A stretch of DNA of 64,000 nucleotides. It comes from Lachnospiraceae bacterium (GTDB lineage Bacteria; Bacillota; Clostridia; Lachnospirales; Lachnospiraceae). The notes under the pieces were generated by a model. It saw only the letters and a program-made list of their open reading frames with translations, made no database searches and was not told where the DNA came from. This document shows, piece by piece, positions 932-62,187 of the stretch. The position numbers were made by a program, and so were the translations under genes. The DNA lies in contig JALEJP010000019.1 of NCBI GenBank assembly GCA_022769625.1, positions 1-64,000 on the forward strand, read 5' to 3'. Numbering within the stretch: the stretch's first letter is position 1; every line of letters starts with the position of its first letter.

Positions 932-1055
932 TACTATCAGTCCCAGAATGCCGTTTCCTGCCTTTTGATTCCTGGCAGAGCCAGGTGGGTATCCGCAGCT
1001 ATGTGCGCTGTCATCCGCTCCAAGGCGGCCCGACATTACACAGGCAATCTAAGAT
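892..1055 (-). ncRNA. ssrS: Candidate 6S RNA
   Basis: Minus strand AGATTGCC...GCGGATACCCACCTGGCTCTGCCAGGAATCAAAAGGCAGGAAACGGCATTCTGGGA: 6S-like 3' half (ACCCACCUGG hairpin), closing-stem complementarity, TATAAT at 1062-1067 upstream, terminator at the end. Confidence 0.55.
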
Positions 1056-1232
1056 TCCCTAATTATAATTGCAGGTTCAAAATAACAGGAGTGTCGCACA
1101 TCCCAGGTTGTTTTCAACTGAAATTATTATACTCTACTATATATAAATTTTCAACTGGAAATTCCAGAAAACTTTTTTTGTACTGCCATTCAGCTTTGAG
1201 CCAAACAATAAAGAAATCTGTCCTGTTCTCTG

Positions 1233-37695: not shown

Positions 37696-39396
37696 CTATT
37701 TTCCACAGAAATCTGGATTATGCAGCAGTTCGTGTGCTTTTCCTTTGAATTCGCTTCCGTTATAGAAAACATCCATCAGAGGATTCTCGTTACATTTCTT
37801 GATTGCCATATTTCCGTCAGCCGTATAGAGACCTTTTGCACGCGCTTCTCTGTGTCTTGGCCCTGCCGGAATCGGCTGTCCGCCGCCCATAATACATCCG
37901 CGTCTGCATGCCATAACTTCGATCAGATGATAATTCTTCTCACCTCTCTGAACCTGCTCCATAACGGTTCTGGCATTTGCAAGTCCACTGACAACACAGA
38001 TATTGACATCCATGCCTTCATACTGAATGGTGAATTCCTTGATGCCCTGTTCACCACGCATACCAGCCTCCGCAATGGCATCCAGAGTAGCGTTGTCATG
38101 TCCGGGTACCAGACGACGAATCACTGCTTCTGTTACACCGCCGGTTACACCAAAGATAACACCTCCGCCGGAACCAATACCAAATGGCATATCACAGGAT
38201 TCTGCCTCAATCTTATCCAGTGCAATACCTGCCGTTTTGATCATGCGGGTAAGCTCCGTGGTAGTGATAACAATATCTGTATCCTTCTCACCTTTTGTAT
38301 AACTGTTCGGACGCTTTGCTTCCATCTTTTTCGCTGTACAAGGCATAATAGATACAACAACCGTCTTCTTTCCCTGTGCATGTTCCGGATTACGGTAATA
38401 CTCCTTGATAACTGCCGAGAACATCTGCTGTGGAGAACGACATGTGGACACATTTTCACGGAAATCCGGGAACTGATCGTCAACAAATTTCACCCATGCC
38501 GGACAGCAGGAGGTCAACAGCGGCAAAGTCCCCCCATTCTTCACACGATCCAGGAATTCCGCAGACTCCTCCATAATCGTCAAATCTGCCGAATAACTGG
38601 TGTCAAATACTTCATCAAAGCCCATGCGGTGAAGAGCTGCTACGATCTTGCCCATGGAATTTTCACCTTTTGGCAGACCAAATGCATCACCTGCTGCCAC
38701 ACGTACAGCCGGCGCAATCTGAGCAACCACTCTCGTATCCTTATCCGCCAGTGCTTTCCATACTTCATCAATATTCGTGCGGATCGTGATGGCACCTGTC
38801 GGACAGAACACACGGCACTGTCCACAGTTCACACAGTCTGTTTCCGCAATCTTCTTATCAAATGCAGGTGTAACCATAGCATCTGTGCCACGGTGTGTAA
38901 ATCCGATACATCCCACACCCTGGATCTCCTCGCAGACACGCACACAGTTTCCGCAGAGGATACACTTATTCGGGTCACGCACAATAGACGGGGAAGAGAA
39001 ATCAATCGGTCTGACTTCTCTGGTATTCTCGAAACGTACATTTAATACACCAAGCCTGTGTGCCAGATTCTGCAGTACACACTCACCACTTTTAACACAG
39101 GTGGTACAGTCACGGCAGTGTGCAGCCAACAAAAGCTCAACAATCAGCTTACGATACTTGCGTACTTTCTCGGAGTTTGTATAAATTACCATGCCGTCTC
39201 TTGGTTCTTCCGAGCAGGATGCAAAGGTGCGTCCTCTGTCATCTTCTACGGTACAGAGTCTGCAGGCTCCGAACGTGGAGAGTTCTGAATGGTAACAGAG
39301 TGTCGGCATGTCGATCCCGGCTTTTCGGATGATCGTAAGAATATTTTTTTCGTCTGTAAATTCGACCTTGCGGCCGTCAATTGTAATAAATCCCAT
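37696..39396 (-). CDS. hydA: NADH-dependent electron-bifurcating [FeFe] hydrogenase catalytic subunit
   Basis: H-cluster motifs LTSCCPAWVKF, VSIMPCTAKKMEAKR, EVMACRRGCIMGGGQP; N-terminal 2Fe-2S and ferredoxin domains. Confidence 0.95.
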   Translation of the reverse strand: MGFITIDGRKVEFTDEKNILTIIRKAGIDMPTLCYHSELSTFGACRLCTVEDDRGRTFASCSEEPRDGMVIYTNSEKVRKYRKLIVELLLAAHCRDCTTCVKSGECVLQNLAHRLGVLNVRFENTREVRPIDFSSPSIVRDPNKCILCGNCVRVCEEIQGVGCIGFTHRGTDAMVTPAFDKKIAETDCVNCGQCRVFCPTGAITIRTNIDEVWKALADKDTRVVAQIAPAVRVAAGDAFGLPKGENSMGKIVAALHRMGFDEVFDTSYSADLTIMEESAEFLDRVKNGGTLPLLTSCCPAWVKFVDDQFPDFRENVSTCRSPQQMFSAVIKEYYRNPEHAQGKKTVVVSIMPCTAKKMEAKRPNSYTKGEKDTDIVITTTELTRMIKTAGIALDKIEAESCDMPFGIGSGGGVIFGVTGGVTEAVIRRLVPGHDNATLDAIAEAGMRGEQGIKEFTIQYEGMDVNICVVSGLANARTVMEQVQRGEKNYHLIEVMACRRGCIMGGGQPIPAGPRHREARAKGLYTADGNMAIKKCNENPLMDVFYNGSEFKGKAHELLHNPDFCGK

Positions 39397-39408
39397 AATG
39401 TCCCCCTC

Positions 39409-41289
39409 CTACGCTTCTACATAAATGGCATCAAATGCACAGTTTTCCTTACATGCTCCACACTTGATACAGATATTCGGGTCGATATGGAATGGCTTCT
39501 TGACCTGACCTGTGATAGCTCCCACCGGACAGTTCTTTGCACACTTGCTGCAGCCTTTACAGAATTCCGGATTAATCACATATTTGCGCATTGCCTGACA
39601 GACTTTGGCTGCACATTTGTGATCGCGGATATGCTCCAGATATTCGTCCCTGAACAGATTTAAGGTACTGATAACCGGAAGCGGCGCACTCTTTCCAAGT
39701 CCACACAGAGCCATACTGCGAATCATGCCTGCAAGCTCCTCCAGCTTGTCCAGATCGGACTCTTCTCCTCTTCCTTCTACAATCTTTTCCAGGATTTCCA
39801 GCATACGTTTCGTACCCTCACGACATGGTACACATTTGCCGCAGGACTCTCTCTGTGTAAAGCTCATAAAGAAACGGGCAACTTCCACCATACAGGTGTG
39901 CTGATCCATGACAACCATACCACCGGATCCTACGATTGCATTAAATTTCTTGACGGAATCAAAATCCAGAGGCTCGTCCAGATGCTTGCTGGTCAGACAG
40001 CCGCCGGACGGTCCGCCAATCTGTACTGCCTTAAACTCGGAGCCTTCTTTCAGTCCTCCTCCTATATCATAAATAATCTCTCTGAGCGTACTTCCCATCG
40101 GAACCTCGATCAGTCCGGTGTTTTCAATCGCACCGGTCAGAGAGAAGGTCTTTGTACCAGGACTTCCGGCTGTACCGATGGAACGATACCAGTCTGCACC
40201 CTGCAGAATTATTTTCGGTACATTTGCATAAGTCTCCACGTTATTGAGAACCGTCGGTTTCTCCCACAGACCTTTCTCAACGGTACGCGGCGGTTTCACA
40301 CGCGGCATACCGCGATTGCCTTCAATCGAAGCAGTCAAAGCACTTCCTTCGCCGCACACAAAAGCACCGGCACCACGGTTGATATGCATATGGAAACAGA
40401 AATCAGTTCCAAGAATATTATCACCGAGCAGATGATGCTTTTCCATCTCGGCAATAGCATGTCTTAAACGGGATACAGACATAGGGTACTCTGCACGTAC
40501 ATAAATATAACCCTCTGTAGATCCGACTGCGTATCCGGCAATCATCATGCCTTCCAGGAGTTTATAGGGATCTCCTTCCATAACCGAACCATCCATAAAT
40601 GCACCTGGATCTCCCTCATCACCGTTACATACCACATAACGCATGGTTTCTTTCTGGCGGGCTACCTGTTTCCATTTTCTTCCGGTTGGGAAGCCTCCGC
40701 CTCCGCGTCCACGCAGACCTGATTTATCAATCTCATCAATTACTTCATCTCTCGTCATCTCAAACATGGCTTTTTCCAGTGCGGAAAAGCCTCCGGATGC
40801 CATATACTCTTCAATAGACTCCGCATCAAAACGACCACAGTTTTCCAGTACAATGCGGGTCTGTTTTGCAATAAACGGAATCTCCTCCGGATGTTTGTAT
40901 ACCTTTTTTGCTTTACGATAAAGGAGGCGCTCCACCACTTCATCGCCCAGAACAGACCGTTCAAAAAGTTCCTGACAATCCTCAATCTGTACTTTTACAT
41001 ACTGAACCGTCTCTTCTCCTTTTGTGATACGAACCAGCGGACCCAGTTCACAGAAGCCCTGACAACCGGTCTTTTTCAGCCCGATATGTGCGTCTCCGTC
41101 ATGAGGTGCAAACTCTACTGTTACGCCCGGAGCCGAGTTTGCCAGTTTCAGAAAACGGTTATAAATCTTCTCGGAGCCTGTCGCAATACATCCGGTACCT
41201 GAACAGACCAGGATACGACAGACAGCCGATGACATCTGCTCTTTCGCTTCAATACGGCATTTTTCCAATTCTTCTCTGTTGTGAATCAT
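39409..41289 (-). CDS. hydB: Electron-bifurcating hydrogenase NuoF-like subunit
   Basis: GLRGRGGGGFPTGRKW, C-terminal 2x[4Fe-4S] CKGCSKCAKNCPVGAI / CIKCGACKENCAFDAI. Confidence 0.95.
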   Translation of the reverse strand: MIHNREELEKCRIEAKEQMSSAVCRILVCSGTGCIATGSEKIYNRFLKLANSAPGVTVEFAPHDGDAHIGLKKTGCQGFCELGPLVRITKGEETVQYVKVQIEDCQELFERSVLGDEVVERLLYRKAKKVYKHPEEIPFIAKQTRIVLENCGRFDAESIEEYMASGGFSALEKAMFEMTRDEVIDEIDKSGLRGRGGGGFPTGRKWKQVARQKETMRYVVCNGDEGDPGAFMDGSVMEGDPYKLLEGMMIAGYAVGSTEGYIYVRAEYPMSVSRLRHAIAEMEKHHLLGDNILGTDFCFHMHINRGAGAFVCGEGSALTASIEGNRGMPRVKPPRTVEKGLWEKPTVLNNVETYANVPKIILQGADWYRSIGTAGSPGTKTFSLTGAIENTGLIEVPMGSTLREIIYDIGGGLKEGSEFKAVQIGGPSGGCLTSKHLDEPLDFDSVKKFNAIVGSGGMVVMDQHTCMVEVARFFMSFTQRESCGKCVPCREGTKRMLEILEKIVEGRGEESDLDKLEELAGMIRSMALCGLGKSAPLPVISTLNLFRDEYLEHIRDHKCAAKVCQAMRKYVINPEFCKGCSKCAKNCPVGAITGQVKKPFHIDPNICIKCGACKENCAFDAIYVEA

Positions 41290-41765
41290 CAGCGCTCACC
41301 TCTCAGTTCTGCAATCAAATCTACTACTTTTTCCGGTGTCATGTTGGGGTGCACTTCATCGTTTACCGTACAGGTCGGTGCAAGCCCACAGGCACCCAGG
41401 CAGGAAACCGTTTCAACCGTAAAAAGCATATCGTCTGTCGTATGCTTTTTGCTTGAAAGTCCAAGTTCCTTAAAAAAAGCGTCCAGAATTGCCGTTGATT
41501 TTTTTACGTGGCAGGCTGTGCCGTCGCAGACTTTAATGATATATTTTCCTTTCTGCTCAAACGAAAAATTCTCATAAAATGTCGCAACACTGTAAGCCTT
41601 TGCTTCCTTGACCCCAATCTCCCTGGCAACATAGGTAAGCAGTTCCCCCGGCAGATAGCGATACTCTCCCTGAATATCCTGCATAACAGGAATCAGAGAG
41701 GATGGTTTCTTACCATACACGGCAATAATCTCATCCGCTTTCTGGTAATATGACTGATCCAGCAT
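41289..41765 (-). CDS. hydC: Electron-bifurcating hydrogenase NuoE-like subunit
   Basis: 158 aa thioredoxin-like 2Fe-2S: VCDGTACHVKKS, CLGACGLAPTCTVND. Confidence 0.95.
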   Translation of the reverse strand: MLDQSYYQKADEIIAVYGKKPSSLIPVMQDIQGEYRYLPGELLTYVAREIGVKEAKAYSVATFYENFSFEQKGKYIIKVCDGTACHVKKSTAILDAFFKELGLSSKKHTTDDMLFTVETVSCLGACGLAPTCTVNDEVHPNMTPEKVVDLIAELRGER

Positions 41766-42029: not shown

Positions 42030-43535
42030 ATGAGAGGTATTGAAACTCAGGTAAGAAAAATCCGCCGCCAGATTTTTGCGGAGGTCTCAAGACTTGGTTT
42101 TGAGTCAGATTCCGAATCACTGATCCACGATATTGAGGCGATCCCCTACAAAATTGTAACGGAAGAAGGTCCGCAGTACCGAGACAGTATTTATCGTGCA
42201 CGGGCAATCGCCACCGAACGTGTGCGACTTGCTATGGGTATGTCACTGCGCCCTACGAACAAACCGGTTCATTTGACAGAAGGTATTGAGGCGAGTAATA
42301 TTTCTGAAAAATACTACGAACCCCCTTTGATGCAGGTCGTTCCCTCTGCATGTGCCGCATGCGAAGACAATAAGTTCGAAGTCAGCGATATGTGCAAAGG
42401 CTGTCTCGCACACCCGTGTGCAGAAGTATGTCCAAAGGGAGCAATCTCCATGGTAAATGGACGCTCTTACATTGATCAGGGAAAATGCATCCACTGTGGA
42501 AAATGCAAATCCGTCTGCCCCTATGATGCCATTTCAAAAAAGGAACGTCCCTGTGCACGTGCATGTGGTGTCAAAGCCATCGGCAGTGACGAATTCGGAC
42601 GCGCAAAGATTGACACAGAAAAATGTGTTTCCTGCGGTATGTGCATGGTAAGCTGTCCATTTGGTGCAATCAGCGATAAATCTCAGATTTATCAGCTTTC
42701 TCTTGCTTTAAAAGAAAAAAATGAAATTATTGCAGAAATCGCACCGGCCTTTGTGGGTCAGTTTGGCGATATGGAGCCTTCCGATGTGCACGCAGCCCTG
42801 AAAACCCTTGGTTTTTCCAGGGTATACGAGGTTGCTCTTGGAGCCGACATTGGAGCCGTATCCGAAGCAAAACATTATGCAGAGAAAGTATCCACAGGAG
42901 AGCTTCCATTTCTTCTGACCTCCTGCTGCCCCTCCTGGTCCATGCTTGCCAAAAAATATTTTCCGGATATGATTGAAAATATTTCACAGGAGTTGACTCC
43001 TATGGTAGCAACGGCCAGAAGCATCAAACTGGAGCATCCAAATGCCAAAGTGGTATTTATCGGTCCTTGTGCCGCAAAAAAATTGGAGGCAAGTCGAAAA
43101 AGCGTTCGAAGCGATGTGGATTTTGTCATTACATTCGAGGAACTGCTGGGTATGTTTGACGCAAAAGGCATAAGTATCACAAAACAGCCGGAAAGCCCTT
43201 CCCTTCATGACGCAACCGCCGCCGGACGGGGCTATGCCGTATCAGGCGGAGTAGCCGGCGCAATCGAAGAATGCCTGAAAGAATACTATCCGGATGTCAC
43301 GCCAAAAATCGTCCATGCAGAAGGACTGGCTGAATGTAAAAAAACACTGGCTCTGGCAAAAGCCGGAAAGATGAACGGATGTCTGATTGAGGGCATGGGA
43401 TGCCCTGGTGGATGTATCGCAGGCGCCGGAACGAATCTGGCACTGAATAAAGCTTCATCCAAAATAAAATGGTACAAATCCGTTTCCACCAAAAAACTGC
43501 CGCCAAAAGAGCTTGCAGAAATTGAACTGAACTAA
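42030..43535 (+). CDS. Group-B-like monomeric [FeFe] hydrogenase with 4Fe-4S clusters
   Basis: LTSCCPSWSMLAKKYFPD, FIGPCAAKKLEASR, EGMGCPGGCIAGAGTN; ferredoxin repeats CIHCGKCKSVCPYDAI, CVSCGMCMVSCPFGAI. Confidence 0.9.
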   Translation: MRGIETQVRKIRRQIFAEVSRLGFESDSESLIHDIEAIPYKIVTEEGPQYRDSIYRARAIATERVRLAMGMSLRPTNKPVHLTEGIEASNISEKYYEPPLMQVVPSACAACEDNKFEVSDMCKGCLAHPCAEVCPKGAISMVNGRSYIDQGKCIHCGKCKSVCPYDAISKKERPCARACGVKAIGSDEFGRAKIDTEKCVSCGMCMVSCPFGAISDKSQIYQLSLALKEKNEIIAEIAPAFVGQFGDMEPSDVHAALKTLGFSRVYEVALGADIGAVSEAKHYAEKVSTGELPFLLTSCCPSWSMLAKKYFPDMIENISQELTPMVATARSIKLEHPNAKVVFIGPCAAKKLEASRKSVRSDVDFVITFEELLGMFDAKGISITKQPESPSLHDATAAGRGYAVSGGVAGAIEECLKEYYPDVTPKIVHAEGLAECKKTLALAKAGKMNGCLIEGMGCPGGCIAGAGTNLALNKASSKIKWYKSVSTKKLPPKELAEIELN

Positions 43536-43539
43536 AAAA

Positions 43540-43582
43540 AACCGGTTTTCCATATGCGGAGTCTGGAAAACCGGTTCTTTTA
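43540..43582. terminator. Bidirectional terminator between hydrogenase gene and riboswitch transcript
   Basis: AAAACCGGTTTTCCA...TGGAAAACCGGTTCTTTT; T-tracts on both strands. Confidence 0.75.
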
Positions 43583-43811
43583 TGACAGGTGCGGATTCCT
43601 GTCACAGAAGGAGGTATGTCGTGAATTACCCCCAATATGTTCAGGATTGCTCGAGATGACTCAATCTTCTTTTTCGTGTATAACCTTCAGACCTGCCACC
43701 GGCAGCTTCCTCCGGATGTATAACAACACAAAATATCTGCTTACCCTTAGCAGACATCATATGGGATCCATATCCCGGATTGGATGTTTCAGCTTTACTC
43801 GGAAGCTCATC

Positions 43812-43998
43812 TCATGTACCAAGCAGGTTTCCTGACTTGCACTTCACTGCACTGCCTCTCCTTCTCGCAAAAATGGGTATACAATGGATTATGAGGCAGT
43901 ACTCTTTGCTTACAGTGGCCGGACCGTTCAGGTTTTTCACCTGATTCCCTTTTACCCGATATACATCGGCACTTGCTACAGCAATATGTAATTCACAT
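43812..43998 (-). promoter_or_regulatory. Cobalamin (AdoCbl-type) riboswitch
   Basis: Minus strand GGGAATCAGGTGAAAAACCTGAACGGTCCGGCCACTGTAAGCAAAGAG...GAGAGGCAGTGCAGTGAAGTGCAAGTCAGGAAACCTGC; B12-box GCCACTG and AGTCAGGAAACCTGC are diagnostic. Confidence 0.92.
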
Positions 43999-44003
43999 TA
44001 CTC

Positions 44004-44032
44004 AGTATACCTTCCTCATAAACGTTTGTCAA
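44004..44032 (-). promoter_or_regulatory. Strong sigma-A promoter driving riboswitch transcript
   Basis: TTGACA (44027-44032) -N17- TATACT (44004-44009), inside the 3' end of the epimerase CDS. Confidence 0.8.
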
Positions 44033-45134
44033 GAATTGTTTTCTCATCCAAATACTTCAGGCCGTCAATCCCTTTGATTCCAAGTCCAGGCTCCTTGGAC
44101 ACAAGAATCTCCTGTTCCTGGAAAACTGCACCGCCAAGGATCGGATCTTCTCTGCAAAGCACCGGTCCATCCAGATCAATTTTTGTAACAATTTTCTTTG
44201 CACATGCCAGATGAACCGCCGCATTGACACTGATTTTTGCTTCCAGCATACATCCAACCATACACTCCACACCGTAAATTTCGGCAGCAGAAGTAATTTT
44301 CAGTGCATTGTACAAGCCTCCGCACTTCATAAGTTTAATGTTAACCAGATCGGCAGCACGCATCTGCATAATCTTAACAGCGTCCTCGCAGGAAAACACG
44401 CTTTCATCTGCCATGACAGGCACATAGGATCGCTCCGTTACATACTTCAATCCTTCAAAATCATGACCTGCTACCGGCTGTTCCACAAATTCGATATCAA
44501 GACCTCGTTCCTGCATCTGGTTCAGCAGACGTACTGCCTGCTTGGGACTCCAGGCCTGATTTGCATCGATTCGCAGCTTCCGCTCTGGTCCTGCTGCCTG
44601 GCGTACCGCAGTCAGTCTGGCAATATCAAGTTCCGGATTTACACCAACCTTCACTTTCAGAGTTTCATAGCCGCGCTCCACCGCATTTCTCGTATCCTCT
44701 GCCATCTCTTCCGGGTCATTGACACTGATCGTAATATCCGTAGTAATCCTGTCCCTTGCACCGCCAAACAGCTTGTACACCGGAATCTTGTAAAGCTGTC
44801 CATACAGATCATAGAGTGCCATATCAACAGCAGCTTTTGCACTGGTATTCCCGACGATACACTTGTTGACTGCCTGTATCACATCTTCAAAATCATCCAC
44901 ATCTCTTCCAACGATGGTTTTTATGATATGATCCCGGAGAGCTCCCAGGATGGCTCCCGTCGTATGTCCTGTTATGGCACCCGTCGGCGGCGCTTCCCCA
45001 TAACCCACATGGCCGGTATCCGTATAAATCTCAACAATGATATCCTCCACGCTTGACACGGAACGCAAAGCCGTCTTAAAGGGGACACGCAGAGGAACGG
45101 AAATTGTCCCAAGTCTGACTTCTGTAATTTTCAT
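44016..45134 (-). CDS. Dipeptide epimerase (L-Ala-D/L-Glu epimerase, enolase superfamily)
   Basis: GYGEAPPTGAITGHT, LKVKVG, LRIDANQAW, EQPV, ADESVFS, NIKLMKCGG. Confidence 0.9.
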   Translation of the reverse strand: MKITEVRLGTISVPLRVPFKTALRSVSSVEDIIVEIYTDTGHVGYGEAPPTGAITGHTTGAILGALRDHIIKTIVGRDVDDFEDVIQAVNKCIVGNTSAKAAVDMALYDLYGQLYKIPVYKLFGGARDRITTDITISVNDPEEMAEDTRNAVERGYETLKVKVGVNPELDIARLTAVRQAAGPERKLRIDANQAWSPKQAVRLLNQMQERGLDIEFVEQPVAGHDFEGLKYVTERSYVPVMADESVFSCEDAVKIMQMRAADLVNIKLMKCGGLYNALKITSAAEIYGVECMVGCMLEAKISVNAAVHLACAKKIVTKIDLDGPVLCREDPILGGAVFQEQEILVSKEPGLGIKGIDGLKYLDEKTILDKRL

Positions 45135-49650: not shown

Positions 49651-50502
49651 TTATGCATTTGCCTTTTCTGCTGCATCCACCACATGGCCAATCAGCACAG
49701 AAGTGGTTACGCTTCCAACGCCTCCCGGTACCGGAGTGATCGCATCCACGATGGGTTCTACTTTATCGTATGCAACATCACCGCAGAGTTTGCCCTCAGC
49801 GTTTACATTGATTCCAACATCAATCACAATCTGACCCGGTCTAACATAAGTATCATCCACAACGCCTGCGCGGCCTGCTGCTACAATTACAATGTCTGCC
49901 TCTTTTACAACAGATGGCATATCCACGGTCCTTGTGTGACAAATAGTAACCGTCGCATTTTTCTTGATCAGCATCATAGCTGCCGGTTTACCCACTACCA
50001 GAGAGCGGCCAACAACCACTGCCTTTTTACCGGTACAGTCAATGCCATAGTGATCCAGAATTTCCATACATGCCTGCGGTGTACATGGCGGATAACCCAG
50101 ATCCTTTCCGGTAAATACGCCTGCCATAGATCCGTTTGTCATACAGTCAACATCCTTTGCCGGATCCAGCGCCTGCTCGATCTCATTCTGATTCAGATGC
50201 TTCGGCAGGGGACGGAACAGAAGCACGCCATGAATATTGGCATCCTTATTCACTTCGTCGATAACAGCCAGAACCTGCTCCTGTGTTGCATCAGCCGGAA
50301 GCAGATATTTTTTATACTCAACGCCCAGTTTTTCGCACCGCTTTGTTGCCCCTCTTTCATAGGAAAGATCGCTTTCATTCTCGCCTACGCGAACAATACC
50401 AAGTGTCGGTTTTACACCTTTTTCATTTAAAGCTGCAACCTTTGCCATAATGCGTTCATTTAAAGCTGCAACTACTTCTTTTCCCAATAACTGTTTTGCC
50501 AT
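49651..50502 (-). CDS. folD: Bifunctional methylene-THF dehydrogenase/methenyl-THF cyclohydrolase
   Basis: VGENESDLSYERGATKRCEKLG, FRPLPKHLNQNEIEQALDPAKDVDC, VVGRSLVVGKPAAMMLI, PVPGGVGSVTTSVL. Confidence 0.95.
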   Translation of the reverse strand: MAKQLLGKEVVAALNERIMAKVAALNEKGVKPTLGIVRVGENESDLSYERGATKRCEKLGVEYKKYLLPADATQEQVLAVIDEVNKDANIHGVLLFRPLPKHLNQNEIEQALDPAKDVDCMTNGSMAGVFTGKDLGYPPCTPQACMEILDHYGIDCTGKKAVVVGRSLVVGKPAAMMLIKKNATVTICHTRTVDMPSVVKEADIVIVAAGRAGVVDDTYVRPGQIVIDVGINVNAEGKLCGDVAYDKVEPIVDAITPVPGGVGSVTTSVLIGHVVDAAEKANA

Positions 50503-50517
50503 AGTTTTTTCCTCCGC

Positions 50518-51147
50518 CTATTTCAGTCTGCCAAGCACACTTTCAAAAATTTCATCTGCCATTGCCGGATATTTTGCCAGCATCGCATCTGCCTTTGCGT
50601 TCAGTTCTTCCGCATACTCTCTGTTTTTCATGGATTTGGTGTTGATGTACACATTCAGAGATGCTCCCTGCAGAGCTGCCTTACAGAACACTGCACCTAC
50701 ACCGGCATCACTGATTGCAAGTGCGGAACCTTTTGCTGCAAATTCCTTGATCAGTTCAATCGCTTCACAGCATTTCTCCATAATTTCCATGGGAACAGAG
50801 CAGGCATCTTTCAGCACGATCTCCATTACACGTGCTTTTTCTGCCTTTTCTTCCTCAGTGGCTCTTGGCATACCATATGCTTTTGACAGAGGCTCAAAAA
50901 CTTCTGCATCTCTCTCAACCAGAGTCAGCAGCTCTTTCTGAAGGACATCACATTTTGCCTTCAGTTCATACATCTCATCCTCTACATCCGCATATTTTTT
51001 CTTGCCCACTGTCAGGCTTCCAACCATATTTCCAAGTGCAGTACCGACTGCACCCACCAGAGCAGATGCTCCACCGCCGCCCGGCACCGGTGCTTTGGAA
51101 GCCAGAACTTCTACGAACTCATTACATGGTACAGTAGAAAATCCCAT
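50518..51147 (-). CDS. fchA: Methenyl-THF cyclohydrolase / formiminotransferase-cyclodeaminase family
   Basis: FVEVLASKAPVPGGGGASALVGAVGTALGNMVGSLTVGKKKY. Confidence 0.92.
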   Translation of the reverse strand: MGFSTVPCNEFVEVLASKAPVPGGGGASALVGAVGTALGNMVGSLTVGKKKYADVEDEMYELKAKCDVLQKELLTLVERDAEVFEPLSKAYGMPRATEEEKAEKARVMEIVLKDACSVPMEIMEKCCEAIELIKEFAAKGSALAISDAGVGAVFCKAALQGASLNVYINTKSMKNREYAEELNAKADAMLAKYPAMADEIFESVLGRLK

Positions 51148-51166
51148 TGTAAACTCCTCCTTCATT

Positions 51167-51817
51167 TTATAATAGTTTCTTTAACGTCCCAATCGCGATA
51201 TCTCCCACAACCGCAAGATCCTCCGCTTCAAAAGACAATGGAAAATTATCGGAAAAGAGAATCTGGGAAGAAGGCGGAAACTCATCATCCCCCGCCCACA
51301 GAAGAAACTGTACGCGATATCCGTTCATGAACTCAAACTCATATCCGGCATCACCATGCCCGCATGCGACAGCCCCCATTGCTTCCATTCTCTTTTGAAA
51401 ATCTTTCAGCCTGTTTCCATAAGAAAAAGCGAGACGCATCATACAGCGCCCGTTAAACTGGCGATAATATACTTCCCCATGAGGTACTTCGCGATATGTC
51501 AGAAATCTGCCGCTTCCAACAGATTCCACGCCTCTGGTCAGATAACGAATCACCATGATCCTGGCCGGAATGCCATCTTCCATGGCTCCATAACCCGTAT
51601 CCGAAGCATCTTTTTTCCGTATCGTACATTCCGGCCATTTTACCAGAAATGTCTTCTGCATCATGCGAACCTCAAACTCCTGTGTATCCTCATGCCAGGG
51701 CACACCGGTTCGTCTGGATGCCTCCTGTGGTTGGATCGATGCAAACTCTTTCAGATAATATTCAAACGGAATTTGCTCCTTATTGTTTTTCTCGTATTCC
51801 GGCTTCATAAATTTCAT
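51167..51817 (-). CDS. DUF3786 domain protein
   Basis: WHEDTQEFEVRMMQKTFLVKWPE... LLWAGDDEFPPSSQILFSDNFPLSFEAEDLAVVGD. Confidence 0.8.
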   Translation of the reverse strand: MKFMKPEYEKNNKEQIPFEYYLKEFASIQPQEASRRTGVPWHEDTQEFEVRMMQKTFLVKWPECTIRKKDASDTGYGAMEDGIPARIMVIRYLTRGVESVGSGRFLTYREVPHGEVYYRQFNGRCMMRLAFSYGNRLKDFQKRMEAMGAVACGHGDAGYEFEFMNGYRVQFLLWAGDDEFPPSSQILFSDNFPLSFEAEDLAVVGDIAIGTLKKLL

Positions 51818-51832
51818 GTTCCTTTTCTGTAT

Positions 51833-51852
51833 GAGAGGTCATAAGACCTCTC
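51833..51852. promoter_or_regulatory. Intercistronic hairpin upstream of DUF3786 gene
   Basis: GAGAGGTC-ATAA-GACCTCTC. Confidence 0.5.
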
Positions 51853-51907
51853 TATTTCGTTTGCCCCGCATGCATCATACATTCAGAACATCCTGCCCTG
51901 CACAAAC

Positions 51908-53833
51908 TCATCCGTGACTCGGAAACAGGGATGCATCCGTATGCGGCAGGAAGCAGGCTCCCACAAACTCATCCATGTATTGCGGGATCGCACTCAGTTC
52001 TATATATGTCATATTGGATGCCAGCTCATAAACCTTGCGCTCCGATGCGGTAGAATACAGCATCGCATATGCACCCGCCAGAGAAGTATTTCCGACATAA
52101 TGGTACATTTCCACCGGAATATCCGGGAACATACCAATGTTGATGGCATTGGCCATATTAATCCCGCTGCCGATACCTCCGGCCACGTAAACATTCTCGA
52201 TCATGGAAATATCAAAATCACAGTAAGACAGCATCGTACGTATTGCAGAGAAAATCGCTCCCTTTGCACGGATAAAGCTGTCAATATCCACCTCTGTAAT
52301 CTCCACATCTTTGCTGGAACCAGCTTCCTCTCCCTCAAAAGCGAGAATATAACTACCCATACCATCGGAATCGCGTCTGACACGTTCACCGTCCCGGATA
52401 AATTTTCCTTTTGGATTGATAATACCGCAGCGGAACAGTTCGCTGATAATATCGATAATACCAGATCCACAAATACCTACCGGTTTCGTGCCCGAATCAC
52501 CTACAACAGTAAGCGTCGGCTCCATGGTCTCCTCATCAATCACACATGCCTCAATGGCTCCATCTGTAGCACGCATACCGCAGCTGATATCTCCTCCCTC
52601 AAAGGCAGGTCCCGCCGAGCAGGCACAGCTGAACATAAAGTCCGAATTTCCGAATACGATCTCACCGTTTGTTCCAAGATCAATAAACAGCGAAAAGGAT
52701 TCTTTATTCCAAAGCATGCTCACAAAAGCTCCCGCTGTGATATCGCCGCCCACGTAGCTTCCAATATTTGGTGCAAGAATAATATGCGCATCCGGATTGA
52801 CACAGATACCGATATCTCCGGCAAACAGAGAATTTGTTTTAAAAAAAGTAGGAATATAAGGCTCCATCCTGACCGGATCTGCATCGACACCAATCAGAAG
52901 ATGATTCATCGTTGTATTGGAAGCGATGGCCATGCGATAGATACTCATGGGATTCAGCTTCGCCTGACGACACATATTCTTCACCAGCGGATTAATGGTC
53001 TCCTCGATCACAGCTTTCTGAAGTTTGTCCCTTCCTCCCGGTTTCTGGGATTCAATAATACGATTAATGACATCTGCTCCATAACGAATCTGTCCATTTC
53101 CGCTTGATGCCTTTGCCAGAATCTTTCCATCCAGCATATCAATGATAATCGCAGACACCGTGGTTGTACCAATATCAATCGCAAGTCCCGCCACCACCGG
53201 TTCTTTCTCGCCACTGCATATGTCATATACAAAAATGTCTCTGCTGGTTTTCCGAATCACCAGATTGACATCAAAATTACTTTCGCGCAGTACGTGCGCC
53301 ATTTTACGGATAACCGAATAGGGAAGCTTCACATGCTCCATTCCGGTCTGATTCCGGATAGCCCATACCAGACGTTCATTGTCCGGCATCGTATCATCCA
53401 GAGTCGGTTCGTCCATTGTTACACGAATGATTTCAAGATTATTTTTGAGTTCGATACCTGCTTCTGCGATAGACTTTTTAATATTATCAAAAATTTTAAT
53501 CTCATCCGGTGATGACAGATCTGCCACTTTCATCCTGCTGCGATAAGCAGAAGCAATGTCTGGAACCAGTACAGCAACATCCGCAATTATTTTACTGACA
53601 CACGCCAGACGCCATCCGGCAGCATACTCTTCATCACTGATATGTCTCGTTTTTTTGGAATCCAATTCCCCACCAATGAGCTTCACTCTGCATTTTCCGC
53701 AAGATGCATTGCCTGAACACGGTGCATCGATAGCTACATTTGTTTTTCTCGCTACCTCAAGAAGGCTTTCACCGAAAGCAGCGAAGACTGTTACATCTTC
53801 GCTGTTTTCAAACTTAAAAGTAACCTTATACAT
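51908..53833 (-). CDS. acsV: ASKHA-type corrinoid protein reductive activator (AcsV/RACo-like)
   Basis: N-terminal 2Fe-2S DAPCSGNASCGKCRVKL; GLAIDIGTTTVSAIIIDM; C-terminal ASKHA domain; location in acs operon. Confidence 0.92.
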   Translation of the reverse strand: MYKVTFKFENSEDVTVFAAFGESLLEVARKTNVAIDAPCSGNASCGKCRVKLIGGELDSKKTRHISDEEYAAGWRLACVSKIIADVAVLVPDIASAYRSRMKVADLSSPDEIKIFDNIKKSIAEAGIELKNNLEIIRVTMDEPTLDDTMPDNERLVWAIRNQTGMEHVKLPYSVIRKMAHVLRESNFDVNLVIRKTSRDIFVYDICSGEKEPVVAGLAIDIGTTTVSAIIIDMLDGKILAKASSGNGQIRYGADVINRIIESQKPGGRDKLQKAVIEETINPLVKNMCRQAKLNPMSIYRMAIASNTTMNHLLIGVDADPVRMEPYIPTFFKTNSLFAGDIGICVNPDAHIILAPNIGSYVGGDITAGAFVSMLWNKESFSLFIDLGTNGEIVFGNSDFMFSCACSAGPAFEGGDISCGMRATDGAIEACVIDEETMEPTLTVVGDSGTKPVGICGSGIIDIISELFRCGIINPKGKFIRDGERVRRDSDGMGSYILAFEGEEAGSSKDVEITEVDIDSFIRAKGAIFSAIRTMLSYCDFDISMIENVYVAGGIGSGINMANAINIGMFPDIPVEMYHYVGNTSLAGAYAMLYSTASERKVYELASNMTYIELSAIPQYMDEFVGACFLPHTDASLFPSHG

Positions 53834-53836
53834 TTA

Positions 53837-54622
53837 TTAGATCTCCAGATAGGAATCTGCGTACAGTGTATTATTCTTGAATACATCACAGGATTTGATG
53901 GTTTCCATCAGACGCAGGTCATTCGGATTTACGATAGCAGAGGTCAGACCCTGCATCATAGCCATCGCTACCAGCGCGGAGTCCATAATCGGACGGATGT
54001 GTTTCGGCATACCGTTCGAGTTATTGGAAAGACCACCGGTAGAATTCAGACCCATATCAGAGAACATCTTGATACACTCAAGAATATCCATCTGCTTATC
54101 CTGCATACCTTTTACAACCAGGAACAGTGGATCAAACCACAGATCCTCTGCTTCCATACCATGCTCCAGACCTCTCTCCAAAAGCAGCTGGCAGTAACCC
54201 ATACGCTCATCATTGTCTTTTGCAATACCTTCACCATTACACAGCGCAATAACGATTGCATCGTTTGCTGCTGCAAGATCGATATTCTCGATTCTTCCGG
54301 CTGCATCTGCAGAGTTGACAATCGGTTTGCCTTTGGAACGGTTGTATACGGAAATACCTGCTTCGATTGCTTTCTTATTGGAAGTATCCAGAGCCAGAGG
54401 TACATTATCCAGCTCGCTCTGAAGAAGCTGTACTGCCCATTTCATCAGTTCTTCTCCATCGCTCTCAGCCGGTCCGATGTTTACATCCAGATAAACAGCG
54501 CCTGCATCCAGCTGCTGTTTTGCTCTTTTCAGAATCGGTTCCGGATCACGAGTTGTGAACGCTTTGTTCACTGCCGGAGCTGTTGTGGAAAGTCTCTCAC
54601 CAATTGTTACAAATTTTGCCAT
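53837..54622 (-). CDS. acsE: Methyltetrahydrofolate:corrinoid/iron-sulfur protein methyltransferase
   Basis: MAKFVTIGERLSTTAPAVNKAF...GAVYLDVNIGPAESDGEELMKWAV, GGLSNNSNGMPKHIRP. Confidence 0.95.
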   Translation of the reverse strand: MAKFVTIGERLSTTAPAVNKAFTTRDPEPILKRAKQQLDAGAVYLDVNIGPAESDGEELMKWAVQLLQSELDNVPLALDTSNKKAIEAGISVYNRSKGKPIVNSADAAGRIENIDLAAANDAIVIALCNGEGIAKDNDERMGYCQLLLERGLEHGMEAEDLWFDPLFLVVKGMQDKQMDILECIKMFSDMGLNSTGGLSNNSNGMPKHIRPIMDSALVAMAMMQGLTSAIVNPNDLRLMETIKSCDVFKNNTLYADSYLEI

Positions 54623-54711
54623 AGCTTTGTTCTCCTTTTGCTCATTTATTTCATTATTTTTCCAAATAATTTTCACTTGGCCATACGGCGAACCGCTGTC
54701 ACAGGAATCGA

Positions 54712-56055
54712 TTATGCGAAATCCTTCATAAACTTAACAAGCTGAACTGCCTCGTTCGGAGCAATGATGATTTCCCAGTCAGGAAGCTTAGCTTCCAGCT
54801 CGCCCTTCAGAACAGCAACCTTGCCAGGAATGATCAGCTTTCTGCTCTTGATCTTGCCTGCGATATCCTGCTCCTCAAAGAATTTTGCAATGGTACCGGA
54901 TGAGAATTTGCCGGCTGCCCATGAGGTCAGTACGGAAAGTCCGCCTGCATCGTTGATGATCAGATTTACCGGTACACCGGAACGCTCCAGCTCGCCGGAT
55001 ACCAGGAAGTATGTAAGTGCAAAGTCAACCGTTGTCAGGCATACTGAATTCTCATCTGCGCCGTTCAGAGGATAAATACCCGGCTCAACTTTCATTGGCT
55101 TCTGCGGATCCGTAAACAGGTTCTGACGCAGACCATACAGAGGAAGTGCTTCTGCATAGCCAATATTCTCAGCTACTACGATTGAACCATATTTCATGGT
55201 GAACAGAGACAGAAGAGCTGCCTGTTTATGAGCATCGCCTCTTGCAACTTTTGCAACATTTACAATAGAAGGATAACCACAGGTTCTGTCGCCATCTTTC
55301 AGTGCTGCCTTGCGAAGCTGTACTGCGTTTTTAAATGTATCTTTTACAGTCTCACCTGTCACATCGATCACAAGGTTCTTATTACCCAGTGCCTCCAGTT
55401 TTTCAACGGTATCATGAATCTCGGCCAGATCTGCCCCGCTGACACCAAGAACCACACCTGCTGCTGTAGCAACTGCATTCATCGCCTCATAGTTGGCAGC
55501 ATCTGCACCGTTCAGGATTGGTTTGCCATCCTTGCATACTTCAAGGGCTGCTTTTGCTTTTTCTGCATCTTTTACGCCAAGAACCAGAACACGTCCCGTA
55601 GCTGCTGCTTTCTTAACCAGCTCAACGTAATCCTGTGCGCCATCTGGTGCATCGTTTACGTATACCATTTCTACGAACATTCTCTCGCCGATACGCTCAT
55701 AGTCAACTTTCGCAATATCTGCAAGTTTCTGCTCAACTGTTGCATCATCCATGCATGTGCACAGTGCCATTGCATATCTTGTTTTGCTTACGAATGTTTT
55801 CTCATGTCTGAACAGAACAGTCTCGCCGCCCAGACTCATTTCTGCATCGCCTGCACCAACTTTGATTGTTTTCATTGGCGGCTCAGTAGCTGCTGACAGT
55901 TTAGCCAGAGCTTCCGGTGCAAAATACGGACATTTTGAAAGCTCTACTGCACCCTGTGCAACTTTCATGGAAAATGCCATACAAGTCGGGCTTCCACATT
56001 CTTTACAGTTTTTCTTCGGTGACAATTTGAAAATATCAAGACCTTTAAGTGCCAT
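54712..56055 (-). CDS. acsC: Corrinoid/iron-sulfur protein large subunit (CODH/ACS gamma)
   Basis: MALKGLDIFKLSPKKNCKECGSPTCMAFSMKVAQGAVELSKCPY 4Fe-4S motif. Confidence 0.95.
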   Translation of the reverse strand: MALKGLDIFKLSPKKNCKECGSPTCMAFSMKVAQGAVELSKCPYFAPEALAKLSAATEPPMKTIKVGAGDAEMSLGGETVLFRHEKTFVSKTRYAMALCTCMDDATVEQKLADIAKVDYERIGERMFVEMVYVNDAPDGAQDYVELVKKAAATGRVLVLGVKDAEKAKAALEVCKDGKPILNGADAANYEAMNAVATAAGVVLGVSGADLAEIHDTVEKLEALGNKNLVIDVTGETVKDTFKNAVQLRKAALKDGDRTCGYPSIVNVAKVARGDAHKQAALLSLFTMKYGSIVVAENIGYAEALPLYGLRQNLFTDPQKPMKVEPGIYPLNGADENSVCLTTVDFALTYFLVSGELERSGVPVNLIINDAGGLSVLTSWAAGKFSSGTIAKFFEEQDIAGKIKSRKLIIPGKVAVLKGELEAKLPDWEIIIAPNEAVQLVKFMKDFA

Positions 56056-56082
56056 AATTCTATCTCCTCCTTAACGCAACAA

Positions 56083-57024
56083 TTAAACTAATTCTTTCAT
56101 CAGACCGGAAATTGTCTTGATGGATTCCGGATGTTTCAGGATCACTGCGTTGGAACCTGCTGCGATCACTGCCATAGCAGTCTCAATTTCCATATCGATT
56201 CCACGCTCTTCCTGAGATCCCCATTCCGGTGAATCTGCTTCGGAAGACATAGCCTCTTTTACACCCCATGTCTCAGATGCAACAGGCGTAATGATCGGCA
56301 TCTGTAAGTTTACATCACCCTGCTGAAGTGCTGCTGCCTTTACACGGTCCATAGTGGAGATTACATACTCAAAACCATAACCTGCTGCTGCAGTACCTAC
56401 ATTCATAACGATGCTCTTCTTATCGACACCAAGCTGGGAAAGCAGAACATTCAGCTGTTTAGCAAGGTTGATATCTACGGCCGATTCAGCGCCTACAACC
56501 TGCTTGTAAGCAAGACCTGCTGCTGCACCAACTGTCTTATAGTTTTCTTCTTTTGCAGAGAGAATAACAGCATTTTTTCCCTCCAGAGCTGCTGCTGCCG
56601 CATTAAACAGTTCTGCATCCTTCTCTGCATTTTTACATCCGCATACGACCAGAGGCAGATCAACTGCTGCTGCGATTTCCTTCAGCTCGCCAATCAGCTC
56701 TTCTGTGGATTTGTTTGCTCCGTTTGGATCTCCGCCTTCCATACGGAAGCTTAAGAAGTCCACACCTTCCATAGAAGCTGCCTTTGCAGCGATCTCTGCC
56801 AGTGTTGTACAGCCTTCATAATACTTTTTGATGCACTCCAGCTCGTGTTCCATACCGAAATCTGTAATTTCGATACCTACCTTCGGTGCGTTTTCAATCG
56901 GTGCATCAAAAGAATACAGAGGGAAAACATTTTCTCCTCCAATCTTCACTGCTTTATCTCCAGTACCAATTTCAACTGTATTGATGCTGGCATTAAATTT
57001 TCCTGATTTTGGTGTAAATGGCAT
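56083..57024 (-). CDS. acsD: Corrinoid/iron-sulfur protein small subunit (CODH/ACS delta)
   Basis: VEIGTGDKAVKIGGENVFPLYSFDAPIENAPKVGIEITD; IITPVASETWGVKEA. Confidence 0.95.
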   Translation of the reverse strand: MPFTPKSGKFNASINTVEIGTGDKAVKIGGENVFPLYSFDAPIENAPKVGIEITDFGMEHELECIKKYYEGCTTLAEIAAKAASMEGVDFLSFRMEGGDPNGANKSTEELIGELKEIAAAVDLPLVVCGCKNAEKDAELFNAAAAALEGKNAVILSAKEENYKTVGAAAGLAYKQVVGAESAVDINLAKQLNVLLSQLGVDKKSIVMNVGTAAAGYGFEYVISTMDRVKAAALQQGDVNLQMPIITPVASETWGVKEAMSSEADSPEWGSQEERGIDMEIETAMAVIAAGSNAVILKHPESIKTISGLMKELV

Positions 57025-57076
57025 TTCTAAAAATCCTCCTTCATGCTTTTTAGACTGTTATAAAACATTACCATCA

Positions 57077-57105
57077 TTTTACAACAGCAGCCGCTAAAAA
57101 TCAAT
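57077..57105 (-). promoter_or_regulatory. Candidate internal promoter upstream of acsD
   Basis: Minus strand TTGATT-N17-TAAAAT. Confidence 0.45.
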
Positions 57106-57151
57106 TATAAAACTTTTAACATATGTCATATTCTGAATTTTTATCGGATAT

Positions 57152-57189
57152 GGGTGCCTGTGGGAATCCGCATTCCCCTGCAGGCACCC
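57152..57189 (-). promoter_or_regulatory. Long GC-rich hairpin between acsB and acsD (terminator/processing element)
   Basis: GGGTGCCTG TGGGAAT-CCGC-ATTCCCCTG CAGGCACCC; no strong U-tract on minus strand. Confidence 0.6.
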
Positions 57190-57258
57190 GCTTTCTTTCA
57201 TAATGATTCAGAATCGTTCATACCATAACGTGATAGGTAATGACAAGATCTGTGCGGA

Positions 57259-59382
57259 TTACATCATCGGCTCCATGGAAAGTGCCGGATGTCCTTTTTC
57301 TTCCAGATAAGCCAGCAGAGTCTCAGGATCTTCTGCAATCGTTTCATCTGCAATCATATCTGCAAAGTTCTCAATACCATACAGCTCTTTTGCTGTCTCG
57401 TTCAGTCTCTCAGCAACCTGATCTTTCAGCTCCTTCGGCATCCATACGATACGTGCAACGCCGCCTTCTGCCTTCATGAACTTCTTGGAAGCGATGAAGT
57501 GTTTGCCGTGTCCCATAAAGCCCGGTGTCTGAACACCGCCGCCTGTCATGGAAGCCAGCTCTGAGAAGGTCATACCGATCGGAGTCATACCTGCATACTC
57601 ACGGTTTGCGATGCAGACACCATTTGACAGAGGCTCAATACCACAGATACACTCGAAACATCCGCAGGATGTCATCGGTTTCTCAATGATGGAATACAGG
57701 GATACATCTTCCAGCGCACCCTGTGAAAATCTCTGTACTGCCTCGTTTACATCCTCGTATTCACCGATTCTCTCATCGATTGGTCTTTCCTTTGTGATGA
57801 TCTGGCATGGTCCCTGCGGATCCAGCTCGTTGGTTGCCTTTGCATCCAGCCATGAAACGGCACCGCAAAGTCCAAGTCTCTCCGGTGTAACTACACATAC
57901 GTGAGACGGTGAGAATGCCTGGCACATGATACAGCTGTAGTATACATCCACGCCTTCATCTGTCAGTGTAGTCAGACGCTCATCACGTTTGTCAAACAGC
58001 GGCATAGCCACTTCATGACGAATTCTGGTACATTCAGCCGGATCGGTGTAAACGGTAACCTGACATTTATCAACAACAGCTGCGAACTCACTCTTAACTT
58101 TCGCATACAGAACTTCACCGATGTGTTTTGCACGGAAGCCTGCCTCATAGGTATCTTTGCTGATACGGATACGGATCATGTCACGCTGACCGGTATGCAT
58201 CATACCTTCCACGCAGTTTAAGTAAGAATGGAACTTACGCTCAAATACCGGTTCAAAGTCAGACTGCATGCTCTTGCCTGCCACTTCTACAACATAGCAG
58301 ATACTCTGTTTGCTGCCCACCGGCATTTCATCGATATCCGGTCCGATCAGTGTAATCTTGTGGTCTTCGATCTCAGAAGCTTCCTTTGTCATAACCAGCT
58401 CACAGCAGTCAACACGGGAACCGTCAAATTCTACCTGCATATCGCCGCGGCGGATGATCTCGCCTTCGAAAGCGGAAGCAAATGCAACCGGAATGTCAAT
58501 ATGTGTAATCTTAATCTTGATATCTCTTGCTTCCAGAGAAGTTGCATTGAATTTAGAAACATCTTTCTGAACGATCAGGCTCTTCGGTACACGGAAAGTC
58601 TCTTCGTTTGTTACAACCGGGAAGCCAAGAGCGATAGCTCCGGCACCACATGCAACAATAACCGGATCCAGAGGAGCAAACGCATTAACAAATGCCGGTA
58701 CACGCTCCATGGTGTATTTCATCAGTCCGGCTGCGTCACCCGGCTGGATGTTACCAAAGATCAGAGCTGCTCTGACTGCAACCGATACTACGTGGATAAC
58801 ACTTGTTACATCCTTGCCCAGAGGGATAACACGTACATTTGCGCCTGTCTTGTAGCCCAGCTCTTCACACTGATCAATGATACCGCCAACCAGAGTTACC
58901 AGGATACCCTGAGCCTGATAGCTCTTTACCAGGTCAACGCCTTCCTGAGCGGTCGGTGCGGAACCAAGGATAACAGCAACACCCGGGATATCACCGGTTA
59001 CCAGAGGTACACCCAGTTCACGGATCACTGCATCTGCCAGATGTCCATAGCAGGGAGCTTCATACGGCAGAGCACCATCAATATATTTCAGAACCTCAAT
59101 AAACTCTGCACACAGAGCTGTTGCGATACCGGACATGAATGCATCATTCAATCTCGGTTCTCTTGTCATCAGAGTCTTAACTACGCCCAGAGCCTCTTTT
59201 AACTGGCCAAGAGTTGCCACTTTTGTGCCGGTTACCGCATAATAACACGGAAGGCTGTATGCGGTATCCGGAAAAGCGATTGCTTTGTCTGCGCCATGTT
59301 TTTCAATCGCTGCATCAATCGCGCCTTCTGTCAGACCGTATACGGTATCATTTCCACTGAATACAACATCAAATAATGTCAC
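57259..59382 (-). CDS. acsB: CO-methylating acetyl-CoA synthase (CODH/ACS beta subunit)
   Basis: YYSCIMCQAFSPSHVCVVTPERLGLCGAVSWLDAKATNELDPQGPCQ, SCGCFECICGI (A-cluster ligands). Confidence 0.96.
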   Translation of the reverse strand: MTLFDVVFSGNDTVYGLTEGAIDAAIEKHGADKAIAFPDTAYSLPCYYAVTGTKVATLGQLKEALGVVKTLMTREPRLNDAFMSGIATALCAEFIEVLKYIDGALPYEAPCYGHLADAVIRELGVPLVTGDIPGVAVILGSAPTAQEGVDLVKSYQAQGILVTLVGGIIDQCEELGYKTGANVRVIPLGKDVTSVIHVVSVAVRAALIFGNIQPGDAAGLMKYTMERVPAFVNAFAPLDPVIVACGAGAIALGFPVVTNEETFRVPKSLIVQKDVSKFNATSLEARDIKIKITHIDIPVAFASAFEGEIIRRGDMQVEFDGSRVDCCELVMTKEASEIEDHKITLIGPDIDEMPVGSKQSICYVVEVAGKSMQSDFEPVFERKFHSYLNCVEGMMHTGQRDMIRIRISKDTYEAGFRAKHIGEVLYAKVKSEFAAVVDKCQVTVYTDPAECTRIRHEVAMPLFDKRDERLTTLTDEGVDVYYSCIMCQAFSPSHVCVVTPERLGLCGAVSWLDAKATNELDPQGPCQIITKERPIDERIGEYEDVNEAVQRFSQGALEDVSLYSIIEKPMTSCGCFECICGIEPLSNGVCIANREYAGMTPIGMTFSELASMTGGGVQTPGFMGHGKHFIASKKFMKAEGGVARIVWMPKELKDQVAERLNETAKELYGIENFADMIADETIAEDPETLLAYLEEKGHPALSMEPMM

Positions 59383-59396
59383 TTTATTTTCCTCCT

Positions 59397-60167
59397 TTAG
59401 ATAGCTGTTTCATCTATCCTGTTTTTAATTATTGAAATTTCAGCCCGCGCTGTGGGACTCACATCAAAAGGTGAACGTCCCTGGCGATCAGCATCAATTA
59501 CTTCTGAATTGTAATGAATGAATCCCAGTAGGTCTTCCTCCGGTATCCTGGAACGAATAAAATCCTCATCCTCTGTGCCCCGCACTTTATTTGCAACAAC
59601 ACGTACTTTTCGAATGCCCAGCTCCGACGCAAGACGTTTCACATTTTTGTAAGTTTGAATACTTCTTGCTCCAGGTTCAATCACAACCACAAACTGATCC
59701 ATTCCTTCCGTCGTCCCTCTTCCAAGATGCTCCAGTCCAGCTTCCATATCCAGAATAACCACATCATTGCTGCGAAGCACCAGATGGTTAATGATTCTCT
59801 TTAACATCACATGTTCCGGGCAGACACAACCGCTCCCGGCGGTTTCCACTGTTCCAAGAACCAGAAGTTTTACACCATTACAGGATTTGGAATAGGTATC
59901 GGGTATATCGTCAACCTTTGGATTCAGCTTATAAAACTGATTCTGATCATTGGCACCTGTACGCTCCTGAATCAGTTTACGCATTTTCGTAATCGGCACG
60001 ATGGAATCCAGCTCTTCCTCTGAAAAACCAAGTGCCAGTCCCAGGTTTGCATCCGGATCCACATCCGCTGCGAGTACATGTTTCCCTTCCTCTGCATACA
60101 ATCTGGCCAGCGTTGCAGCAAAAGTTGTCTTTCCCACTCCGCCTTTTCCGGTAACTGCAATTTTCAT
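59397..60167 (-). CDS. CooC/AcsF-type nickel-insertion ATPase
   Basis: MKIAVTGKGGVGKTTFAATLARLYAEEGKHVLAADVDPDANLG; CVCPEHVMLK. Confidence 0.9.
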   Translation of the reverse strand: MKIAVTGKGGVGKTTFAATLARLYAEEGKHVLAADVDPDANLGLALGFSEEELDSIVPITKMRKLIQERTGANDQNQFYKLNPKVDDIPDTYSKSCNGVKLLVLGTVETAGSGCVCPEHVMLKRIINHLVLRSNDVVILDMEAGLEHLGRGTTEGMDQFVVVIEPGARSIQTYKNVKRLASELGIRKVRVVANKVRGTEDEDFIRSRIPEEDLLGFIHYNSEVIDADRQGRSPFDVSPTARAEISIIKNRIDETAI

Positions 60168-60248
60168 ATATTCATCCACCTTTGATTTTTGATATACAGA
60201 GCAAGCTTTGATACTTGCTCTGTCCGTACTTTACTTTAAATCTATTGA

Positions 60249-62141: not shown

Positions 62142-62187
62142 CATTTACCTCCTTAAATTATAGTGGGTTTTACTTTTATCTGAGGGT

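Follow-up and report, generated by a model that had tools for sequence, protein, structure and literature searches.

Ordinary members of the cobalamin riboswitch family RF00174 lie mostly ahead of mRNAs for B12 transport, B12 synthesis or related functions (60 sampled), whereas one copy in the DNA analyzed here runs into a terminator with no gene on its strand before it. The question is what such a riboswitch controls. The stretch, hereafter the window, comprises 64,000 nucleotides of a Lachnospiraceae bacterium (contig JALEJP010000019.1 of GenBank assembly GCA_022769625.1). A preliminary description of the locus had proposed a small RNA or micropeptide of about 450 nt, or an antisense regulator of the neighboring hydrogenase. 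Overall, our data indicate that the element is very probably a conserved RNA gene that begins with a riboswitch and is linked to acetogenesis.

Architecture of the locus

The RF00174 covariance model matched positions 43805-43991 of the minus strand over its full length (1-189 of 189), scoring 102.3 bits (gathering score, 31.5; E=1.8e-24). The genome contains four such matches, and this one has no same-strand gene ahead of its terminator. A sigma-70-type promoter, TTGACA-N17-TATACT, occupies 44004-44032 (-). A promoter-like site is expected about once per shuffled region by chance, and the call, with 11/12 matches, carries weight because of its position and its presence in the sister species, where TTGACA...TATAAT stands at the equivalent place. 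The unit spans 44032-43536 and closes with an intrinsic terminator at 43536-43582 (-), an 18-bp stem with a U run that is predicted to be strong on both strands and holds UCCGCA in its loop. About 250 nt of noncoding sequence separate it from the aptamer, and no known gene was found on the sense strand of that interval. Beyond the terminator lies a convergent monomeric [FeFe] hydrogenase of group B1 (42030-43535 (+); TIGR04105, 605 bits). The riboswitch, its own promoter, the bidirectional terminator and the lack of a recognizable target gene, all named in the preliminary description, were thereby confirmed.

The expression platform begins with a putative P13/L13 element at 43783-43811 (-), GATG.GCT-TTCCGAGTAA-AGC..CATC, which we assigned by analogy with the known architecture of cobalamin riboswitches and which is present in every member of the RNA family described below. 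It is followed at 43732-43758 (-) by a hairpin with a GGGU loop, which, judged from its sequence, is most likely the intrinsic terminator of the riboswitch, because another locus (L170) carries the same hairpin with seven U directly ahead of an mRNA. Across 12 sequences, the pairing of this hairpin reaches 91%, compared with at most 45% in sliding controls, and its four double-change pairs, equalled by 27/500 shuffles, amount to moderate covariation. Termination at this site may not be general, because some members have the hairpin without a U run.

Downstream, the conserved small-RNA block comprises a UCUC box (ATCTCGAGCA; 43648-43657 (-)), an anti-Shine-Dalgarno stretch that is the predicted seed (ACATACCTCCTTCTG; 43605-43619 (-)) and the hairpin TGTGACAGG-AATCCGCA-CCTGTCATA (43581-43606 (-)), whose UCCGCA loop is predicted to be at least 0.89 unpaired. 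The three hairpins listed earlier all exist: TCTGCT-AAGGGTA-AGCAGA lies inside 43758-43732, GACAGG-N8-CCTGTC lies at about 43603-43584, and CTGCC-GGT-GGCAG falls within a dispersed repeat of about 50 nt at 43682-43733 (-). This repeat (TTGTTGCNATNCATCCGGAGGAAGCTGCCGGTGGCAGG) has no counterpart in the same-genus species and is inserted, in the window, right behind the GGGU terminator hairpin. It is common in the family (also at L007, L009, L012, L017 and L036), where it usually sits directly behind the U run of intrinsic terminators, a T-box terminator among them.

The micro-ORFs that had been noted are present in this one sequence, but read-through of the TGA found no support and the frame that we tested is not conserved. 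It starts at the GGGU hairpin, and in most relatives a stop follows after 3-14 codons; the frame also shifts with the length of the loop, lacks its start in several members and, in the window species, runs into the dispersed repeat. The non-conserved frame gives the proposed micropeptide no support.

Conservation and motifs of the RNA

A second species of the genus retains the block at 75% identity (E=2e-100), with the convergent hydrogenase downstream as in the window and a different gene upstream. A DNA search of 397 genomes of the same family, extended by a covariance model that joins P13 to the hairpin, found the element in ten genomes from nine genera. Scanning 85,462 named genomes for the pattern returned 13 loci, of which 11 belong to Lachnospiraceae and two are chance matches; RF00174 lies immediately upstream in 11/11 of the Lachnospiraceae loci. 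Among the named members are Murimonas intestini DSM 26524 (whose record bears an unverified/contaminated flag), isolate 1XD42-54 and species of Candidatus Limivivens. A second model, applied to 392 genomes of the order, added more members, every one within the same family. The parts follow the aptamer in the order P13/L13, variable linker, GGGU-loop hairpin, UCUC box, anti-Shine-Dalgarno stretch, UCCGCA hairpins and terminator, and the genes flanking the RNA change between genera while the RNA stays. Searches with the downstream parts of three loci found no Rfam family above the gathering score; candidate known families were chance matches alone (microRNA-type and one sRNA), far below that score. 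On sequence grounds, the small RNA of about 450 nt envisaged at the outset is well supported, as it has its own promoter and terminator and recurs, amid differing neighbors, in at least nine genera.

Two motifs characterize the downstream RNA. The anti-Shine-Dalgarno stretch reads (A)YACACAA-AUACCUCCUU across the family, with its ACCTCC core in 13/14 non-redundant members; the divergent members G391 and G320 are without the core. A conserved C-rich stretch complementary to the Shine-Dalgarno sequence is thus present, as in FsrA/IsrR-like sRNAs. Folding predictions for the genus of the window place most of this stretch in a helix with GGGGGUA. For the second motif, TCCGCA, we counted 25 copies in 14 members, whereas a first-order simulation predicts 0.8. 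Of 60 ordinary riboswitch leaders sampled in the family, four contain it, in a single copy each, and two of these four (L137 and L140) belong to the second group of loci described next. The (U)UCCGCA sequence lies mostly in hairpin loops, with one to three per RNA on stems of unrelated sequence between members, and the loop of the end terminator often holds it as well.

Ten further loci, delimited by eye, have a B12 riboswitch and a terminator hairpin followed by a different conserved RNA with a AUUAUGCAUGAUUAAAUGGC-like sequence. RNAs of this second group were noted at L015, L053-L055, L057, L058, L060, L137, L140, L163 and L165. They often bear UCCGCA loops (CCUCCGCA), and acetyl-CoA synthase is encoded in 8/10 of the genomes concerned. 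Some of them may be leaders, because one genus has a gene for a cysteine-rich small protein downstream. The kinship of this second group to the first is unproven.

Linkage to the Wood-Ljungdahl pathway and candidate targets

Upstream of the RNA, the window encodes a complete Wood-Ljungdahl cluster at 49651-62144 (-), consisting of acsA, cooC, acsB, acsD, acsC, acsE, acsV, a metV-like gene, fchA and folD (cooC and metV were named from position and resemblance alone). The minus-strand order is folD, four unrelated genes, the RNA, then hydC-hydB-hydA, and then spoIVA. The hyd genes, which encode an NADH-dependent [FeFe] hydrogenase (37696-41765 (-)), lie directly 3′ of the RNA in several relatives. 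Elsewhere, the RNA directly follows folD (at least two genomes) or is flanked by folD on one side and hydCBA or spoIVA on the other, and in five genomes it is found on the same strand downstream of the acs operon, 9-14 kb from acsB. Full-length acetyl-CoA synthase is encoded by 49/397 genomes overall, compared with 10/10 genomes carrying the RNA, which bears out the suggested link to corrinoid-dependent carbon fixation. The co-occurrence has p=3.4e-10 in a Fisher test that ignores the shared ancestry of the genera, and a rough count by genus, likewise ignoring shared ancestry, still gives about 1e-8. Among nine further genomes reached through named records, acsD is present in seven and absent from two draft genomes.

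The window also contains a 6S RNA (RF00013, 56 bits) at 936-1112 (-). In the acsB-acsD gap (~57030-57110 (-)), an inverted repeat, CTGTTGTAAAAT-N-ATTTTA(C/T)AACAG, surrounds the acsD promoter and recurs in several genera (G001, G140, G179, G250, G668 and L202); it is likely the operator of a Wood-Ljungdahl regulator.

Because an anti-Shine-Dalgarno sequence can find a partner in every strong ribosome site, we kept the core fixed and shuffled its flanks when scoring twelve genes in eight related genomes. Extra pairing beyond the core was found for acsD (Stouffer z of -3.7) and acsB (-2.8), and the other ten genes ranged from -1.9 to +1.1. The top candidate target by ribosome-site complementarity is acsD (56083-57024 (-)), encoding a subunit of the corrinoid iron-sulfur protein. 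An uninterrupted twelve-base pairing of the sRNA with acsD is possible in G179 and Murimonas (ACCTCCTTCATG with CATGAAGGAGGT). Both partners have changed in 1XD42-54, and twelve bases pair anyway (TACCTCCTTGTG with CACAAGGAGGTA). Beyond the core, TTCATG matches CATGAA in two genera, and another clade has TTGTG matched with CACAA. Neither CATGAAGGAGGT nor CACAAGGAGGTA was found at the readable acsD sites of genomes without the RNA, and one such genome, G014, has a site close to the pairing sequences (AACAAGGAGGTA). Cognate pairs of sRNA and acsD surpassed swapped pairs with p=0.024 over 12 genomes and 0.10 over seven clades. Taken together, the sequence comparisons are suggestive of acsD as the best candidate target of the RNA.

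Other searches for targets gave less. Long seed matches were not enriched in the genome itself (15-mer with up to two mismatches, 11 compared with 9 in a reversed control), UGCGGA, the partner of the loop, formed no pattern close to start codons, and a search for B12-binding domains returned a single clear match, a radical SAM protein. The acsB-acsD gap of the window and that of G001 contain non-homologous hairpins (at ~57155-57190 in the window) with AUGCGGAU in or near the loop, which is complementary to the AAUCCGCA loop of the small RNA. These hairpins are absent from other genera, and because they are restricted to the genus of the window, we count them as a lead to a partner of the RNA loops, not as evidence.

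Putative mechanism, alternatives and known systems

In the usual logic of such riboswitches, B12 halts transcription at a terminator hairpin. We accordingly infer an OFF switch for a trans-acting sRNA that blocks Wood-Ljungdahl translation at low B12. The riboswitch would read the corrinoid level within a free-standing RNA gene. Binding of B12 would let P13 and the GGGU hairpin fold, and transcription would end at about 260 nt. Without B12, the 3′ strand of P13, ACATC, could pair with the 5′ arm of the hairpin, GATGT, as an antiterminator, and the polymerase would read through to produce an RNA of about 460 nt. The added 3′ part would expose the anti-Shine-Dalgarno stretch and the UCCGCA hairpin loops. 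It would target Wood-Ljungdahl mRNAs, acsD first, by base-pairing in trans with their ribosome-binding sites through the proposed segment ACCUCCUU, so that their translation is lowered while the cofactor is missing. We favor this reading over each of the alternatives below, although the chances that all of its steps hold seem to us evenly balanced. Somewhat more tentatively, we propose that this is a "B12-sparing" base-pairing RNA that ties Wood-Ljungdahl translation to corrinoid and shares its UCCGCA loop motif with the second group of RNAs. If the mechanism is true, a single transcript from the end of the pathway's operon would unite sensor and effector.

The repeated loops might instead serve a protein. 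Identical loops, one to three per RNA, on sequence-unrelated stems are what one would expect if the ligand is a protein, and one of the two published B12-gated noncoding RNAs is a sponge; like EutX/Rli55, this B12-gated RNA could titrate an RNA-binding regulator that recognizes UCCGCA-loop hairpins and so keep it from Wood-Ljungdahl or other mRNAs. We regard this as unlikely, although worth keeping in view. No sense-strand UCCGCA hairpin ahead of acs genes was found in the loci scanned. ANTAR dual hairpins have six-base loops with A1 and G4, whereas no such hexaloop occurs in the window RNA, whose hairpin loops comprise 7, 8 and 11 bases (AAGGGTA, AATCCGCA and GACTCCGCATA). An EutV-like ANTAR regulator was not found in the genome, and the one ANTAR-domain protein present (G000, contig C51, 24278-24424; L040) is encoded directly 3′ of the glutamine synthetase gene, for which reason we rejected an ANTAR/EutV sponge. 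A reading in which the RNA is a long attenuated 5′ leader of hydCBA appears rather improbable. At low B12, read-through would yield more hydrogenase and so an outlet for electrons while the Wood-Ljungdahl pathway is stalled, and in L072, L079, L083, G179 and G668 a same-strand hydC does begin 450-630 nt past the B12 box; in G693, moreover, a B12 riboswitch (L170, C55:12751) lies immediately ahead of a monomeric [FeFe] hydrogenase homologous to that at 42030-43535 of the window. However, a terminator closes the RNA ahead of hydC, the convergent gene intervenes in the window, and members with spoIVA, galE or other downstream genes keep the same RNA. A further riboswitch of G693 (L162, C55:477) precedes genes resembling malate dehydrogenase and hdrB, and it is possible that L170 and L162 represent direct B12 control of electron disposal.

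The remaining alternatives fare worse when the comparison is extended to other genera. The hydrogenase is convergent in both species of the genus, and the window has short ORFs, as expected for an antisense RNA or a coding micropeptide. We nevertheless consider this pair very improbable, since the bidirectional terminator is strong, the tested ORF is not conserved and the neighbors vary in other genera; with galE, spoIVA, hydCBA or other genes downstream there, the earlier suggestion of a leaky terminator giving antisense control fails as a conserved function. The absence of a gene behind the riboswitch could also mark a non-functional relic whose gene was lost. The preliminary description had named a decayed B12 gene as the finding that would speak against it, and none of the homologues has a gene at the site. 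Promoter, motifs, hairpins and both terminators are retained in nine genera despite changing neighbors, and a relic is scarcely credible.

The architecture of the proposed sRNA gene has precedents. EutX of Enterococcus and Rli55 of Listeria, similar to the window RNA, combine a B12 aptamer under its own promoter with a noncoding, terminator-ended 3′ part, near a B12-dependent pathway and with no coding target in cis. They exist as a short form with B12 and a form of about 450 nt without it, as is predicted for the window RNA. Their ANTAR dual hairpins bind EutV, whereas the window RNA has UCCGCA loops and an anti-Shine-Dalgarno stretch, and its pathway is Wood-Ljungdahl. EutX/Rli55 sequesters EutV and AspocR lowers pocR expression, so that in each case the B12-dependent pathway is on only with the cofactor present (PMC5821096, PMC8079631). 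AspocR from Listeria resembles our proposal in that a long RNA under a B12 riboswitch reduces the expression of a B12-dependent metabolism gene. However, AspocR is antisense to pocR, whereas no conserved opposite-strand gene is overlapped by the window RNA family, and the downstream genes differ between genera.

With FsrA, IsrR and RoxS/RsaE of Firmicutes, the window RNA shares C-rich, Shine-Dalgarno-matching stretches and, as proposed here, a cofactor- or metal-sparing logic, although we know of no sequence similarity to them. FsrA-type sRNAs are under a protein repressor such as Fur, whereas the window RNA is gated by a riboswitch in its own transcript. The C-rich sRNAs IsrR and FsrA cover Shine-Dalgarno sites and thereby spare iron (PMC9410917). 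For acetogens, cobalamin riboswitches in the open-access literature searched concern B12 synthesis and transport genes only (PMC5651825, PMC12456013, PMC6239172), and how their corrinoid-dependent CO2 fixation is matched to B12 supply appears little studied. B12-gated sRNAs are already known; the RNA family, its motifs and the Wood-Ljungdahl link appear to be new, and the UCCGCA loop motif has so far been undescribed. The RNA adds one more family to a very short list of riboswitches with regulatory-RNA output and, as a conserved RNA at an operon end, would offer a direct, testable regulator that bears on gut hydrogen and acetate metabolism and on acetogen engineering. If the targets hold, it would unite the layout of the B12-gated noncoding RNAs with that of the C-rich, Shine-Dalgarno-blocking sRNAs.
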